Part shown: positions 28,982-34,878 of the stretch, in pieces
Layout: every line of letters starts with the position of its first letter
Position numbering within the stretch: the first letter of the stretch is position 1
NCBI GenBank assembly: GCA_016875395.1
Contig: VGRF01000002.1
Location: forward strand, 1-64,000
Direction: 5' to 3'
Origin: Deltaproteobacteria bacterium
GTDB taxonomy: Bacteria > Myxococcota_A > UBA9160 > UBA6930
Length of the DNA: 64,000 bases
Made by a program: the position numbers and the translations under genes
The notes under the pieces: generated by a model
What the model was told of the DNA's origin: nothing
The model's database searches: none
What the model saw: only the letters and a program-made list of their open reading frames with translations

Positions 28982-29593
28982 TTACGCGGTCCGGAACTCG
29001 CACTTCGCCCAAGCGGGGCGCAGGCGCATGCGCGCGAGGTAGGCGCTCACGTTCGGGTAGGGCGCGAGGTCGAAGGCCGAGAGCGAGAGCGCGTCGAGCA
29101 CGGGCGCGTAACAACAGTCGACGAGCGAGAATTCGGCGCCGTTCACGAACGCGTGCTTGCCGAGCTGCACTTCCACGAGCCCGAGCGGCGCCGCGATCTC
29201 CTCGGCGCCGCGCGCGCGGTCTGCCTCGCTCACGGGAATCTTCACCTGCGGCGCGACGAAGTCGTTGAACCAGAGGTTGCCGACGTTCTCCGAGAGGTGG
29301 CGCGCTTCGAGGAAGAGCCAGCGGAGCGCGGCTGCTTTGCCCGCGGCGTCCGCGGGCCAAAGCCGCCGCTCGCGCTCGCCGAGGTAGGCGAGCATCGCGT
29401 TCGACTCGGTCAGCACCATCGCGCCGTCCTCGAGCACGGGAACTTTCGCGTGCGGATTCAGGCGCACGAAGTCGGGGTGACGCTGCTGGCCGCGGAACAA
29501 GTCGACCGCGACGAGGTCGTGCGCGAGCCCGAGTTCGTGCAGCGCGAGGCGAACCTTCTGCGGGTTGAACGACCAGAACCAGTAGAGCTTCAT
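28982..29593 (-). CDS. Glutathione S-transferase
   Basis: 203 residues. Thioredoxin-like N-terminal half (MKLYWFWSFNPQKVRLALHE, VPVLEDG, LTESNAMLAYL with the glutathione-binding SNA) and an all-helical C-terminal half. The catalytic residue would be in the SFNPQ loop (Ser). Its ATG overlaps the stop of the kinase/phosphatase gene by ATGA (29590-29593), so the two are translationally coupled. Confidence 0.92.
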   Translation of the reverse strand: MKLYWFWSFNPQKVRLALHELGLAHDLVAVDLFRGQQRHPDFVRLNPHAKVPVLEDGAMVLTESNAMLAYLGERERRLWPADAAGKAAALRWLFLEARHLSENVGNLWFNDFVAPQVKIPVSEADRARGAEEIAAPLGLVEVQLGKHAFVNGAEFSLVDCCYAPVLDALSLSAFDLAPYPNVSAYLARMRLRPAWAKCEFRTA

Positions 29594-30846
29594 GGCAACT
29601 CCTTCGCGTCGCGCCCGAAGCGCGGCTCGAGCGGCGTGCGCTCTTCGAGGCAACCGTAAGCCGTGGGCGTGAGCTTGATGACGGTGTGCAGCGGCATCTC
29701 GAGGTGCGGCACGTCCGCACGCGGCAGCTGCTGGAAGTAGGCGTAGAGCGCGCGCAGCACGGCGCGGTGCGCGATCACGAGCACGGGCGTGCGGTAGCGC
29801 TCGAGCTCGATGATCACGCGGTCGAGGCGCTGGATCACATCCTGATAACTCTCGCCGCGCGGGTAGCGGTAGGCGAGCTTGTCGCGGCGGCGCGCGGCGA
29901 ACTCCTGCGGCAGCGAGTGCTCGATCTCGGCGTAGGTCATGCCGTCGCACTCGCCCGCGTTGATCTCGTCGAGCGCGCGCCACTCGCCCGGATCGATGCC
30001 GAGCGCCGCCGCGGTCTGCTTCGTGCGCTGCAGCGTGCTCGTCCACACGTCGAGGTCGCTCGCTGCGCCGAAGTGCCCGCGCACGTGCGCCGCGAGGTTG
30101 TGCGCGTACTCGAGCCCGCGCGAAGAGAGCGGCGCGTCGCCGCCGATTCGCCCGAGCACGTTCCACTCGCTCTCGCCGTGGCGCGTGATCCACACCTGCC
30201 GCTTCGTCACCTGCAGGTTCGTCAGGAAGAACACGATGCGGCCCTGTACGTAGCCGTAGACCTCGTGGATCACGATCTGGCGCCCGCGGTCGACGTGGCG
30301 CACGAACGCGCCTTCATCTTCGCCGAGCGGCTCGTACACGCTCGCGTAGTGCGCGATGCGCGCGCGAAAGTCGCTGAGCGCGTCAGCCTCGGTCGCGCGC
30401 GCGTAGTCCGGGGAGCCGAGCTTCGCCTCGCGCAGGTTCGCCTCGATCACTTCGAGCTCGTTGTTGATCAGCTCGACGAAGAGCAGATCGCGATCCTCGG
30501 CTTCCGCGCGTGCACGGATCATCTCGCGCTGGCTGCGCGTCGTGTTGGTCGCGTCGTAGATCGCGACGCGCCCGGGGCCGCGCAGGTAGGCGAGCGCGTC
30601 GTCGAGAACGGCCTCCGCGAGCGCTCGGCGCTGCGCGACGGCGTCCTTGTTGTTGGGGTCGAAGAACTCGTGGCTCTGCCCCGGCCCGAGCTGCGTGCGC
30701 CTCCGCGCGCCGACGTTGAACACCTCGGTCGGGTAACCGAGCCACGAGAGGTATCCCGCGAGCTTGCGCGCGGTGAACGACTTGCCGCGCGCGGGAAGCC
30801 CAACCATCGCGATGAGATGCTTTCGGCCTCGTCTCGGGCGTGCCAT
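29590..30846 (-). CDS. Bifunctional 6-phosphofructo-2-kinase/fructose-2,6-bisphosphatase
   Basis: 418 residues with both domains of the eukaryotic PFKFB enzyme in the same order. Kinase half (1 to 215): P-loop GLPARGKS (16-23), VFNVGARRR, IYDATNTTR and SSPDY-like GSPDYARA. Phosphatase half (216 to 418): RHGESEWN (R222, H223), RIGGDAPLSSRG, YPRGESYQD, AHRAVLRAL and PLHTVIKLTPTAYGC. It would make and destroy fructose-2,6-bisphosphate. A phosphofructokinase gene diverges from it 274 bases away. The phospho-acceptor His and acid-base residues of the phosphatase half appear intact. Confidence 0.95.
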   Translation of the reverse strand: MARPRRGRKHLIAMVGLPARGKSFTARKLAGYLSWLGYPTEVFNVGARRRTQLGPGQSHEFFDPNNKDAVAQRRALAEAVLDDALAYLRGPGRVAIYDATNTTRSQREMIRARAEAEDRDLLFVELINNELEVIEANLREAKLGSPDYARATEADALSDFRARIAHYASVYEPLGEDEGAFVRHVDRGRQIVIHEVYGYVQGRIVFFLTNLQVTKRQVWITRHGESEWNVLGRIGGDAPLSSRGLEYAHNLAAHVRGHFGAASDLDVWTSTLQRTKQTAAALGIDPGEWRALDEINAGECDGMTYAEIEHSLPQEFAARRRDKLAYRYPRGESYQDVIQRLDRVIIELERYRTPVLVIAHRAVLRALYAYFQQLPRADVPHLEMPLHTVIKLTPTAYGCLEERTPLEPRFGRDAKELP

Positions 30847-30921
30847 CGGGGTGCCTCACAGCGGCGCGGTGCTTCGCGCTCGCCGGTGGCTTTCCGACGG
30901 CCGAAACCATCTCATCGCGAT
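30806..30921. repeat. Inverted duplication of the kinase gene 5' end
   Basis: The segment ATCGCGATGAGATG-CTTTCGGCC (30806-30828), inside the first codons of the kinase/phosphatase gene, is repeated in reverse at 30899-30921 with one mismatch in 23. The copies are 70 bases apart, across the gene's own start and promoter region. The plus-strand copy would encode RNHLIAI against RKHLIAM in the gene. Confidence 0.7.
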
Positions 30922-31120
30922 CTTCCTGGTTGACTCCGCATCGGGCTCGAAGACTCGCCCGCTGCTGCGCGCTGCGCTTGCCGCCGCGGCCGACCGGCTC
31001 GAGTGGAGAGTTCGACTTCGAGGTCGTTCTGATAGCGAGGCGGCGCGGTGGTTCGCGAGGTGTGCGTGGGAGTTTCTCTGGTGCGCCGTTACTCATCGAA
31101 CGCGTAGAACGGAGGTGGCG

Positions 31121-32344
31121 ATGGCGACTCTGGCGATTCTCGTGGGTGGGGGGCCGGCGCCCGGGATCAATGGCGTGATCGGCGCGGCGACGATTCTGGC
31201 GCGGCGGCGGCGGGCGCGTGTGCTCGGGATTCCGAACGGGTTCGAGCCGCTGATTCGCGGCGAGCTCGATTCGGTGCGCGAGCTGCACATCGACGACGTG
31301 TCGCGCATCCACTTGCTCGGAGGTTCGGTGCTCGGAACTTCGCGCGTGAGCCCGCTCGAGCCGGACGGGGTGCTCGGCCGCACGATCGACTCGCTCGCGC
31401 GACTCGGCGTCGACCACCTCCTCACGATCGGCGGCGACGGCACGGCGCACGTCGCGCGCAAAGTGTCGGACGCGCCTCTCGCGCGCTTCACGCTCGCGCA
31501 CGTGCCCAAGACGATCGACAACGATCTGCCGCTTCCACCCGGAGTGCCCACGTTCGGCTACGAGACCGCGCGTGGCGAAGGCGCGCGCGTGATCGGTCAC
31601 CTGCTCGAAGACGGGCGCACGAGCTCGCGCTGGTACGTCGTCGTCATGATGGGGCGAAGCTCCGGCCACCTCGCTCTCGGCGCCGCGAAGGCCGCTGGCG
31701 CGACGCTCACGATTCTTCCCGAGGAGCTGCGCGGGCGCGCCGTGCACCTCGGCGACGTCGCGCGCATCGTCGAGGGCGCGATGCTGAAGCGCCTCGCGAT
31801 GAAGCGCTCGCACGGTGTCGCGGTGATCGCTGAGGGCGTCGCGGAGCTGCTGCCCGAGTCGGACTTTCCGGACGGAATTCCTCGCGACAAACAGGGGCGG
31901 CCGCGCTTCTCGGAGTTGCCGTTCGGCGATCTCGTCGCGAAACGCGCGCAGGCTGGCCTGCGCGAGCTCGGCATCGATCTCTCGGTGATCGACAAGGACG
32001 TCGGTTACGAGCTGCGCTGTGCGGAACCCAACGCGTTCGACGTCGCCTACACGCGCGATCTCGGCGCGGGAGCCGCCGAGTCGCTGCTCGACGGCGCCCA
32101 TCGCGTGATGATCACACGCGACAACGACGCGATCGTGCGCGTGCCGTTCGCCGACATGCTCGACGCCGAGACCGGTAGGACGCGCGTACGCTCCGTCGAC
32201 GTCGCGGGGCGCACCTACGCCACCTCACGCTTGCTTCAGGTGCGGCTCGAGCCTGCGGACCTCGAGCCGGGCTCGCTCTGCGACGCGATCTGCGCGCTCG
32301 CGAAGCGCAGCGCGGACGAGCTGCGCGCCCGCTACTTCGGCTAG
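31121..32344 (+). CDS. pfkA: 6-phosphofructokinase (PfkA family)
   Basis: 407 residues. Family motifs GGGPAPGINGVI, GGDGTAHVA, PKTIDNDLPLP, GYETARGEGA, MGRSSGHLALGAAK and a sugar-phosphate loop (IPRDKQGRPRFSELPFGD) are clear. Gly in GGDGT is the ATP-type residue, whereas Lys in PKTIDND is more typical of PPi-type enzymes, so phosphoryl donor is ambiguous. GGAGGTGGCG precedes the ATG at 31121. It is divergent from the bifunctional PFK-2/FBPase-2 gene, which suggests coordinated control. Confidence 0.93.
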   Translation: MATLAILVGGGPAPGINGVIGAATILARRRRARVLGIPNGFEPLIRGELDSVRELHIDDVSRIHLLGGSVLGTSRVSPLEPDGVLGRTIDSLARLGVDHLLTIGGDGTAHVARKVSDAPLARFTLAHVPKTIDNDLPLPPGVPTFGYETARGEGARVIGHLLEDGRTSSRWYVVVMMGRSSGHLALGAAKAAGATLTILPEELRGRAVHLGDVARIVEGAMLKRLAMKRSHGVAVIAEGVAELLPESDFPDGIPRDKQGRPRFSELPFGDLVAKRAQAGLRELGIDLSVIDKDVGYELRCAEPNAFDVAYTRDLGAGAAESLLDGAHRVMITRDNDAIVRVPFADMLDAETGRTRVRSVDVAGRTYATSRLLQVRLEPADLEPGSLCDAICALAKRSADELRARYFG

Positions 32345-32357
32345 GCGCCGCCAGCAC

Positions 32358-32786
32358 TCACTTCGTCGGCTCGAGCCCCGTCGCCCCGCCGAGCTTCGGC
32401 AGCGCGTCGCCGATCCTCGTCCACTCCGCGCGGTCGTCGTAGAAGACGTGCAGCTGCGGCTCGCGGTCGATCGGGCCTAACAGATTCGCCACGGGGATGT
32501 CGACGCGATCATGGTGTGCGGTGTTCTCGCAGAACAGCGAGGTGCCGCAGCGCGCGCAGAACGTGCGCGAGCCATGCTCCGACGACGCGTAGCGTGTGAG
32601 CGCTTCGGCTCCCGAGTCGAGCGAGAGCTGTGCTGGCGGAACGGCCGTCCAGGTGACGTACGCGGCGCCGTGGTTGCGCCGGCACATCGTGCAGTGGCAG
32701 TGCGCGCAGAAGAGCGTGGGCAGCGTGATCGTGAAGCGCACGGCGCCGCACAGGCACGCTCCGGAAACTCGCTTCGCGCCGCTCAT
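32358..32786 (-). CDS. GFA-family (Mss4-like) zinc protein
   Basis: 142 residues. Zinc-binding motifs of the glutathione-dependent formaldehyde-activating family are present: GACLCGAVRF, CHCTMCRRNHG and FCARCGTSLF. The name reflects an early proposal for formaldehyde-glutathione adducts; most homologs are unassigned. The ATG at 32786 overlaps the stop of the ABA4-like gene (ATGA). It is the last gene of a three-gene unit. Confidence 0.9.
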   Translation of the reverse strand: MSGAKRVSGACLCGAVRFTITLPTLFCAHCHCTMCRRNHGAAYVTWTAVPPAQLSLDSGAEALTRYASSEHGSRTFCARCGTSLFCENTAHHDRVDIPVANLLGPIDREPQLHVFYDDRAEWTRIGDALPKLGGATGLEPTK

Positions 32787-33235
32787 GCGACTTCTCCGAG
32801 CGAAGCGCTGCGAGCGCGCATCCAGCGGAAGCCGAGGTAGAGCAGCAGACCCATCGGGCCTGCCATCAGCGTGAGGAAGAGGCACGGCACGAGCTGCCAG
32901 TGCGGCACGCCGCGCCGCTGCGCGTCGCGCGCTTCCCACGCGCCGACGAAGAGGTCGAAGCACAGGTAGTGCACCCAGCCGACGAGCAGCGTGCGTGGAT
33001 TCGCGAACGCCGCGGAGATCGCCGCGAGGCTTCCCATGCCGCCCTCGCTCTCGGGGACGGCGCTGAACGCGCCCGCCGCGAGGAAGCCGATCGTGTAGAC
33101 CGCGCCTAACAACACGGGGTAGAGCAGCGAGTGCACGAGGCGCTGCGTCCATACCCAGCGCGGCGCCACGGCGAGCAGCAGCCACGCGGGCATGACGGAG
33201 GCGTTGGCGAGCGTGAAGAGCTGCTCGTCGCTCAT
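32783..33235 (-). CDS. ABA4-like (DUF4281) membrane protein
   Basis: 150 residues, four hydrophobic helices, with the family segments FTLANASVMPAWLLL, HYLCFDLFVGAWEARDAQRRG and AGPMGLLLYL. Plant ABA4 is needed for neoxanthin synthesis; bacterial members are found without carotenoid genes and are uncharacterised. It overlaps the genes on both sides by four bases, so the unit is tightly coupled. Confidence 0.88.
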   Translation of the reverse strand: MSDEQLFTLANASVMPAWLLLAVAPRWVWTQRLVHSLLYPVLLGAVYTIGFLAAGAFSAVPESEGGMGSLAAISAAFANPRTLLVGWVHYLCFDLFVGAWEARDAQRRGVPHWQLVPCLFLTLMAGPMGLLLYLGFRWMRARSASLGEVA

Positions 33236-34023: not shown

Positions 34024-34878
34024 GTGCGCGTTGGAATCAATCTTCTGCTCTGGACCGACGACCCGACGAACGAGCGGTTCCTGCCGCTCTACGAGCGCCT
34101 CGCGCGCATGGGCTACGACGGCCTCGAGCTGCCGATCTTCGGGGGCGAGCCCGAACGCTTCCGCATGCTCGGCGCGCGCCTCGCGGATCTCGGCCTCGCG
34201 CGCACCGCGACGGCGGTGTGCCCGCCCGAGACGGATCCCATTCACCCCGACGTCGCGGTGCGGCGTGCCGCGGTGGCGCACCTCTCACGCGCGATCGACT
34301 GCTGCGAGGCGGCCGGCGCCGACTTGCTCGGCGGTCCGCTGTATGCGGCGATCGGGAAGTTCTCAGGCAAGCCGCCGACCGACAGCGAGTGGGAGACGAG
34401 CGTGGACGTGATGCAGCACGCCGCCGACTACGCCGCGCGCGCCCGCGTGACGCTCGTGTTCGAGTTCCTGAACCGCTTCGAGATCTATCTGCTCAACGAC
34501 ACCGCGCAGACCGCGCGCTACGCGCGCTGCGTCGCGCGGCCGAACGTTGGCGTTCACTACGACACCTTCCACGCGCACATCGAGGAGAAGGAGCCGGCGC
34601 TCGCGATCGAGAACGCCGGCGCCGCGATCCGTCACGTGCACGTCTCCGAGAACGACCGCAGCACGCCGGGTCGCGGCCAGGTGCGCTGGGCCGAGACCTT
34701 CTCCGCGCTGAAGCGCGTGGGCTACGACGGCTGGCTCACGCTCGAAGCGTTCGGCGCCGCGATCCCGTCGCTCGCCGCGGCGACGCGCATCTGGCGGCGC
34801 ATGTTCGTGGACGAAGAGGTGCTCGCGCGCGAAGGCCTCGCGTTCACGCGACGCGCGTGGGAGGCGACGGGGCGCTGA
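34024..34878 (+). CDS. Ketose 3-epimerase-like TIM-barrel protein
   Basis: 284 residues. An AP-endonuclease-2-type barrel with metal-ligand-like motifs VFEFLNRFE, GVHYDTFHAHIEE, HVHVSENDR and LTLEAFG, close to D-tagatose/D-psicose 3-epimerases. These interconvert ketoses with Mn or Co. Starts at GTG 34024. The next genes on its strand include another barrel at 36022, suggesting uptake and interconversion of unusual sugars. Confidence 0.88.
   Translation: MRVGINLLLWTDDPTNERFLPLYERLARMGYDGLELPIFGGEPERFRMLGARLADLGLARTATAVCPPETDPIHPDVAVRRAAVAHLSRAIDCCEAAGADLLGGPLYAAIGKFSGKPPTDSEWETSVDVMQHAADYAARARVTLVFEFLNRFEIYLLNDTAQTARYARCVARPNVGVHYDTFHAHIEEKEPALAIENAGAAIRHVHVSENDRSTPGRGQVRWAETFSALKRVGYDGWLTLEAFGAAIPSLAAATRIWRRMFVDEEVLAREGLAFTRRAWEATGR

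Follow-up and report, generated by a model that had tools for sequence, protein, structure and literature searches.

Does this bacterium encode its own fructose 2,6-bisphosphate (F-2,6-P2) switch, and if so, on which enzyme of central sugar metabolism would the signal act? The question is raised by a divergent gene pair in the 64,000-nucleotide stretch analysed here (the window), positions 1 to 64,000 of contig VGRF01000002.1 from the Deltaproteobacteria bacterium assembly GCA_016875395.1, which is a draft. The minus-strand gene is of the PFKFB type (6-phosphofructo-2-kinase/fructose-2,6-bisphosphatase, or PFK-2/FBPase-2), the enzyme by which animals, fungi, and plants both form and break down F-2,6-P2, and the plus-strand gene encodes a phosphofructokinase (PFK) of the PfkA family. 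We favor, with moderate confidence, the reading that the first is a working PFK-2/FBPase-2 whose F-2,6-P2 controls the step between fructose 6-phosphate (F6P) and fructose 1,6-bisphosphate (F1,6-P2), most likely through inhibition of fructose-1,6-bisphosphatase (FBPase), with or without activation of the PFK.

Identity of the PFKFB-type gene

The preliminary description of this DNA had placed the pair at 29590-32344, which is exact, and had read the minus gene as a kinase followed by a phosphatase, in the eukaryotic order and with its named motifs intact. Matches to PF01591 and PF00300 and a phmmer alignment to PFKFB3 bear this out (Table 1). With the full-length protein as the query, human PFKFB3 was the best match in the PDB (E 1.7e-112, residues 11-403, 46% identity), and the phosphatase domain alone best matched rat liver bisphosphatase (1fbt, E 6.8e-63). 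The AlphaFold model (predicted local distance difference test score 86) matched human and bovine PFKFB2/3 with template modelling scores of 0.92-0.93 (Foldseek, E 4e-49). The motifs GLPARGKS, DATNTTR, RHGESEWN, RIGGD, and LHTVIKLTPTAYGC were all seen in the protein. A chance origin of these matches, and of those of the neighboring PFK, is excluded. Given that the P-loop starts at residue 16 and the chain ends soon after the core, the protein appears to be close to a bare catalytic unit lacking long regulatory tails. It is encoded by a single-copy gene in this genome.

To assess the active sites, 119 bacterial PFKFB sequences were gathered (99 once near-duplicates were removed) and compared at positions whose catalytic roles we take to be those assigned by established work on the mammalian enzymes. 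Kinase residues K22, R49, R50, D98, N101, K142, R163, and Y167 showed zero variation, and within the P-loop G16, P18, R20, G21, and K22 were fixed, with Thr or Ser at residue 23. Phosphatase residues R222, H223, N229, R274, E294, R319, K323, E332, and H360 were likewise invariant. In the alignment to 1fbt, the RHG His, Arg307, Glu327, and His392 (rat liver numbering) are all matched in the window PFKFB, and R274 corresponds to the Arg of the rat liver bisphosphatase, a position occupied by Ser in human PFKFB3. Every catalytic residue examined is thus intact, and the key ones are constant.

Two positions could suggest that the protein is a bifunctional sugar-phosphate kinase/phosphatase for some metabolite other than F-2,6-P2: the equivalent of rat Gln393 is Arg in the window PFKFB (R361) and in 19 of the 119 relatives, and position 391 varies. 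However, the remaining F6P and F-2,6-P2 contact positions checked agree with those of the mammalian enzymes, and the commonest residue at 361 among the relatives is the eukaryotic Gln, which is kept in 92, making this explanation very unlikely. The assignment of the gene as a bifunctional PFK-2/FBPase-2 with F-2,6-P2 as its product is, as far as sequence comparison goes, well supported.

Table 1. Coordinates of the gene pair and of its principal sites (window numbering)
Feature	Position	Strand	Basis or comment
PFKFB-type gene, 6-phosphofructo-2-kinase/fructose-2,6-bisphosphatase, 418 aa, ATG start	29590..30846	-	Pfam, phmmer, AlphaFold/Foldseek
6-phosphofructo-2-kinase domain, residues 7-214	30205..30828	-	PF01591 (6PF2K), 212 bits
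P-loop GLPARGKS, residues 16-23	30778..30801	-	alignment
Fructose-2,6-bisphosphatase domain, residues 218-399	29650..30195	-	PF00300 (His_Phos_1), 138 bits
RHG motif with phospho-acceptor histidine H223	30175..30183	-	unchanged in 119/119 sequences
Divergent intergenic region, 274 bp	30847..31120	.	63 bp in g4 relatives L053, L055, L052
PfkA-family PFK, clade of pyrophosphate-dependent PFKs (Thermotogales-like)	31121..32344	+	PF00365, 153 bits; NF041103; fold
Codon GGC, Gly109 (GGDG; E. coli 104)	31439..31441	+	Asp in 31/31 close relatives
Codon GTC, Val113 (E. coli 108)	31451..31453	+	Ser in 31/31 close relatives
Codon AAG, Lys132 (PKTIDND; E. coli 124)	31508..31510	+	pyrophosphate-type Lys kept

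Distribution and ancestry of bacterial PFKFB

The enzyme had been described as present in only scattered bacteria, a statement that needs correction. In a sample of 379 genomes of the window's phylum (taken as Myxococcota), PFKFB was found above the family cut-off in 83, or about one-fifth, two of which are short fragments. A scan of genome contigs yielded 253 encoding stretches, and among the best 80, which were used here, the labels were mostly Myxococcota, including Sorangium, Polyangium, Minicystis, and Sandaracinaceae, with a few Binatota or Acidobacteriota. The phylum is taken as Myxococcota because the PFKFB of one of its genomes (G308) is almost the same as that of Polyangium. Some metagenome-assembled genome records labelled Klebsiella pneumoniae, Rhodobacterales, or Sulfopaludibacter (L108, L113, L126, L127) also carry a Myxococcota-like PFKFB, and these labels are probably wrong. 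A search of plasmids returned no full-length PFKFB, the matches being to the histidine-phosphatase domain only.

The strong likeness to human PFKFB might be taken to indicate contamination or a recent transfer from a eukaryote, but the gene is intact and bacterial, lies on a 342-kb contig, and has bacteria of its own family as its closest kin (65-70% identity). In the PFKFB tree, where human PFKFB3 is the single eukaryotic sequence, bacterial diversity is deep and the human protein falls outside the well-supported bacterial groups, which excludes a recent capture. Contig context and tree together led us to reject this explanation, to which we attach hardly any credence.

The PFKFB family is well known and its sequences are public; what is unusual is how widely it is conserved within a single bacterial phylum, together with its pairing here with a donor-altered PFK. 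A January 2026 preprint (PMC12873801) describes the regulation of PFK by F-2,6-P2 as eukaryote-specific, with reference to Michels and Rigden 2006, and a statement in a 2022 paper (PMC9721465), citing Rider et al. 2004, allows for no F-2,6-P2 in bacteria except in Desulfovibrio desulfuricans. Our literature search, thin on subscription journals, found no study of a bacterial PFKFB.

Donor site of the neighboring phosphofructokinase

The open frame of the plus gene spans 30764..32344, and because homology begins at MATLAILVGG, we place the start at ATG 31121 (or GTG 31115) rather than at the distal TTG. The encoded protein is the sole PF00365 match in its genome. Against the Thermotogales model for pyrophosphate (PPi)-dependent PFK, NF041103, it scored 482 bits, under the cut-off of 550, and the best structure, both by sequence and by fold, was the Trichomonas vaginalis PPi-PFK (9dqm/9mdt). 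The PFK tree nests it in the PPi-type clade together with its own family (Shimodaira-Hasegawa approximate likelihood-ratio support 99), on a branch of length 0.7 compared to a median of 0.19.

The donor site was compared across 32 clade members, the window PFK and 31 distinct relatives. At E. coli positions 104, 108, and 124, all 31 relatives have D/S/K, and G/V/K occurs only in the window PFK; that is, the PPi-selecting Asp is replaced by Gly and the Ser at the second donor-pocket residue by Val, with the Lys retained. According to a 2025 review, the GGDD aspartate shuts out ATP and fixes the PPi register, position 108 is Gly in every solved ATP-PFK and larger in PPi-PFKs, and the PKTIDXD lysine is by itself not diagnostic of the donor (PMC12203962). 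The donor marks therefore conflict, one indicating ATP (the GGDD aspartate is absent) and two still looking PPi-like (K132 is present, and the Gly of ATP-PFKs at position 108 is absent, the residue being Val113). The mixed marks of a PfkA-family enzyme, mentioned in the earlier description, are thus real; GGDG is ATP-like and PKTIDND is PPi-like.

The combination G/I/K is common in a separate PFK group of the window's phylum (20 sequences), which makes ATP use by the window PFK plausible. Moreover, the window PFK deviates at 13 of 119 otherwise conserved columns (0-8 in its relatives), and its identity to the PFKs of its family is 53-59%, compared with 59-95% among those PFKs themselves. The window PFKFB is not unusually diverged. 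The PFK has therefore undergone a general acceleration along with the donor-site change. Sequencing error in a draft assembly is an unlikely cause of the donor-site changes, given that they affect two distinct positions and that the gene is diverged overall. Taken at the level of sequence, these data suggest that the window PFK may have switched its donor from PPi to ATP.

Conservation of the gene pair and other neighbors

PFKFB and PFK are divergent in genus g4 (genomes G003, G008, G011, G012, and G013, and locus L063), as in the window, so that the divergent pair is found in two genera of one family, g1 (that of the window) and g4. No other tested neighbor in the window was common to g4, and the persistence of the pair amid otherwise shuffled tested neighbors supports its retention. 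The PFK lies away from PFKFB in the PFKFB-bearing genomes G004, G006, G010, G031, and G047, and neighborhood clustering of the best 80 PFKFB loci revealed no gene that recurs at PFKFB outside near-identical Sorangium strains. The suggestion that relatives keep the pair thus stands for g1 and g4, but not for most PFKFB-bearing relatives, in which the genes are unpaired. A promoter scan of the intergenic region found no sigma-70-like site.

In the window (34024-34875, plus strand) as well as in G004 (L056:1966-2808), PFKFB has a xylose-isomerase-like TIM-barrel gene nearby, with 63% identity between the two. Because G004 has this gene near PFKFB without an intervening PFK, the PFK must have joined or left the locus within the family. 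On the other side, a gene of the glutathione S-transferase family (28982-29593, minus strand) starts within the PFKFB stop codon, and this ATGA overlap suggests co-transcription of the two; the g4 relatives have no such neighbor. An ABA DEFICIENT 4-like gene (PF14108, 142 bits) was also observed at 32786-33235 on the minus strand, flanked by a GFA-family gene and a TonB-C gene.

Possible targets of F-2,6-P2

Besides its PFK, the window's genome encodes one class I FBPase (L206, C1 336313-336834), and no GlpX, FBPase_2, or FBPase_3 match was found in it. This FBPase shares 47% identity with human FBP2, and its sugar-phosphate contacts NE(A)Y, GARYIGSMVADVHR, YP, and KGKLRLMYE are conserved. The KRGKYV region of the AMP site reads AGGQYV, so AMP control of the enzyme may be weakened. 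In eukaryotes, F-2,6-P2 is an active-site inhibitor of FBPases.

One alternative is that F-2,6-P2 works chiefly by direct allosteric control of the adjacent PFK. Divergent adjacency in two genera argues for this, as does the fact that the genome has no second PfkA-type PFK. Genome G031 (same order, 96% complete) points in the same direction, as it carries PFKFB (L049) and a PPi-type PFK (L039; D/S/K) but gave no class I FBPase, GlpX, FBPase_2, or FBPase_3 match, leaving the PFK as the obvious target. In contrast, G151 (same phylum, 97% complete) carries a full-length 6PF2K and a class I FBPase, and no PF00365 PFK was found in it. The class I FBPase of the window's genome, with its conserved sugar contacts, is also as good a candidate target as the PFK. 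It further counts against direct action that the window PFK, a short homomeric enzyme, is without the duplicated half in which animal PFK has its F-2,6-P2 site. The 2025 review cuts both ways, as it describes plant PPi-PFKs as activated by F-2,6-P2 and every characterised bacterial PPi-PFK as non-allosteric (PMC12203962). An action of F-2,6-P2 on the adjacent PFK is thus plausible from the gene content, but that this should be its chief role seems doubtful.

The opposite alternative is that the sole target of F-2,6-P2 is FBPase, or a different enzyme such as pyruvate kinase, with the adjacency of the PFK reflecting shared expression only. Class I FBPase is present in 12 of the 13 genomes checked, among them G151, and the FBPase of the window's genome is nearer to human FBP2 than to the E. 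coli type in a PDB search (1e-86 versus 1e-78). Pyruvate kinase, a target of F-2,6-P2 in trypanosomes, is also encoded in this genome. However, this explanation accounts neither for G031 nor for the pairing conserved in two genera, and we regard it as possible rather than probable. With G151 lacking a detected PfkA-type PFK and G031 a detected FBPase, neither target alone suits every genome. G031 is a candidate, from its gene content, for an organism in which glycolysis and gluconeogenesis both run through a reversible PPi-PFK, a two-way use that the 2025 review lists as an open question (PMC12203962).

We therefore return to the reading in which F-2,6-P2 controls the F6P/F1,6-P2 step as a whole. 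PFKFB would make F-2,6-P2 from F6P and ATP and hydrolyse it back via a phosphohistidine, and the balance of its two active sites would set the level of a signal acting on a step that here comprises one detected PfkA-type PFK, transcribed divergently from the shared intergenic region, and one class I FBPase. Most likely, F-2,6-P2 would inhibit FBPase at the active site, and it might or might not activate the PFK directly as well. We consider the inhibition slightly more secure than the activation, given that the characterised bacterial PPi-PFKs are non-allosteric, that the plant enzymes respond, and that neither target fits all genomes. The window PFK descends from reversible PPi enzymes and has probably shifted towards ATP; the step would thereby become one-way, creating with FBPase a futile cycle for which a switch of this kind is required.

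Several points weigh against this reading. In addition to the non-allosteric behavior noted above, PFK stands beside PFKFB in only 4 of the best 80 loci. The FBPase contacts are no sign of tuning to F-2,6-P2, since they are also ordinary substrate contacts. Finally, the donor switch that may have occurred involves two residues of a fast-evolving protein in a draft assembly.

A wider proposal would be that F-2,6-P2 signaling is native and old in Myxococcota, that in this family it directly controls a paired PFK that went from PPi to ATP and from reversible to one-way and regulated, and that the eukaryotic PFKFB may have come from this bacterial lineage or have an origin in common with it. Taken as a whole, we consider this unlikely, though a bacterial PFKFB bears on the origin of the eukaryotic enzyme in any case, and the paired PFK is a natural case in which to examine how a PPi enzyme turns into an ATP enzyme. 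Given that intact, conserved PFKFB occurs in about one-fifth of the sampled Myxococcota genomes, with cultured Sorangium, Polyangium, and Minicystis among them, the idea of an F-2,6-P2 circuit in bacteria is directly testable.

Comparison with known systems

The window PFKFB resembles the eukaryotic PFK-2/FBPase-2 enzymes (PFKFB1-4; PDB 2axn, 5hr5, 1k6m, 1bif) in domain order, full-length alignment, the catalytic residues of both domains, and fold, and differs from them in its short N- and C-terminal tails, in R361 in place of Gln393, in being bacterial, and in its pairing with a PFK. The class I FBPases FBP1/FBP2 are the other classic target of F-2,6-P2; their substrate contacts are kept in the window's genome, whereas the AMP-site region differs. 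The window PFK shares its clade, its length of about 409 aa, its fold, and the PKTIDND lysine with the Thermotogales-type PPi-PFK (NF041103) and T. vaginalis PPi-PFK1 (9dqm, 9mdt), but unlike these it has GGDG for GGDD, Val for Ser at position 108, a score below the NF041103 cut-off, and a long branch. Its donor combination, G/(I or V)/K, is that of the phylum's G/I/K PfkA group (probably PFK_mixed, TIGR02483). That group is only about 30% identical to the window PFK, which acquired these residues independently, as a member of the PPi clade.

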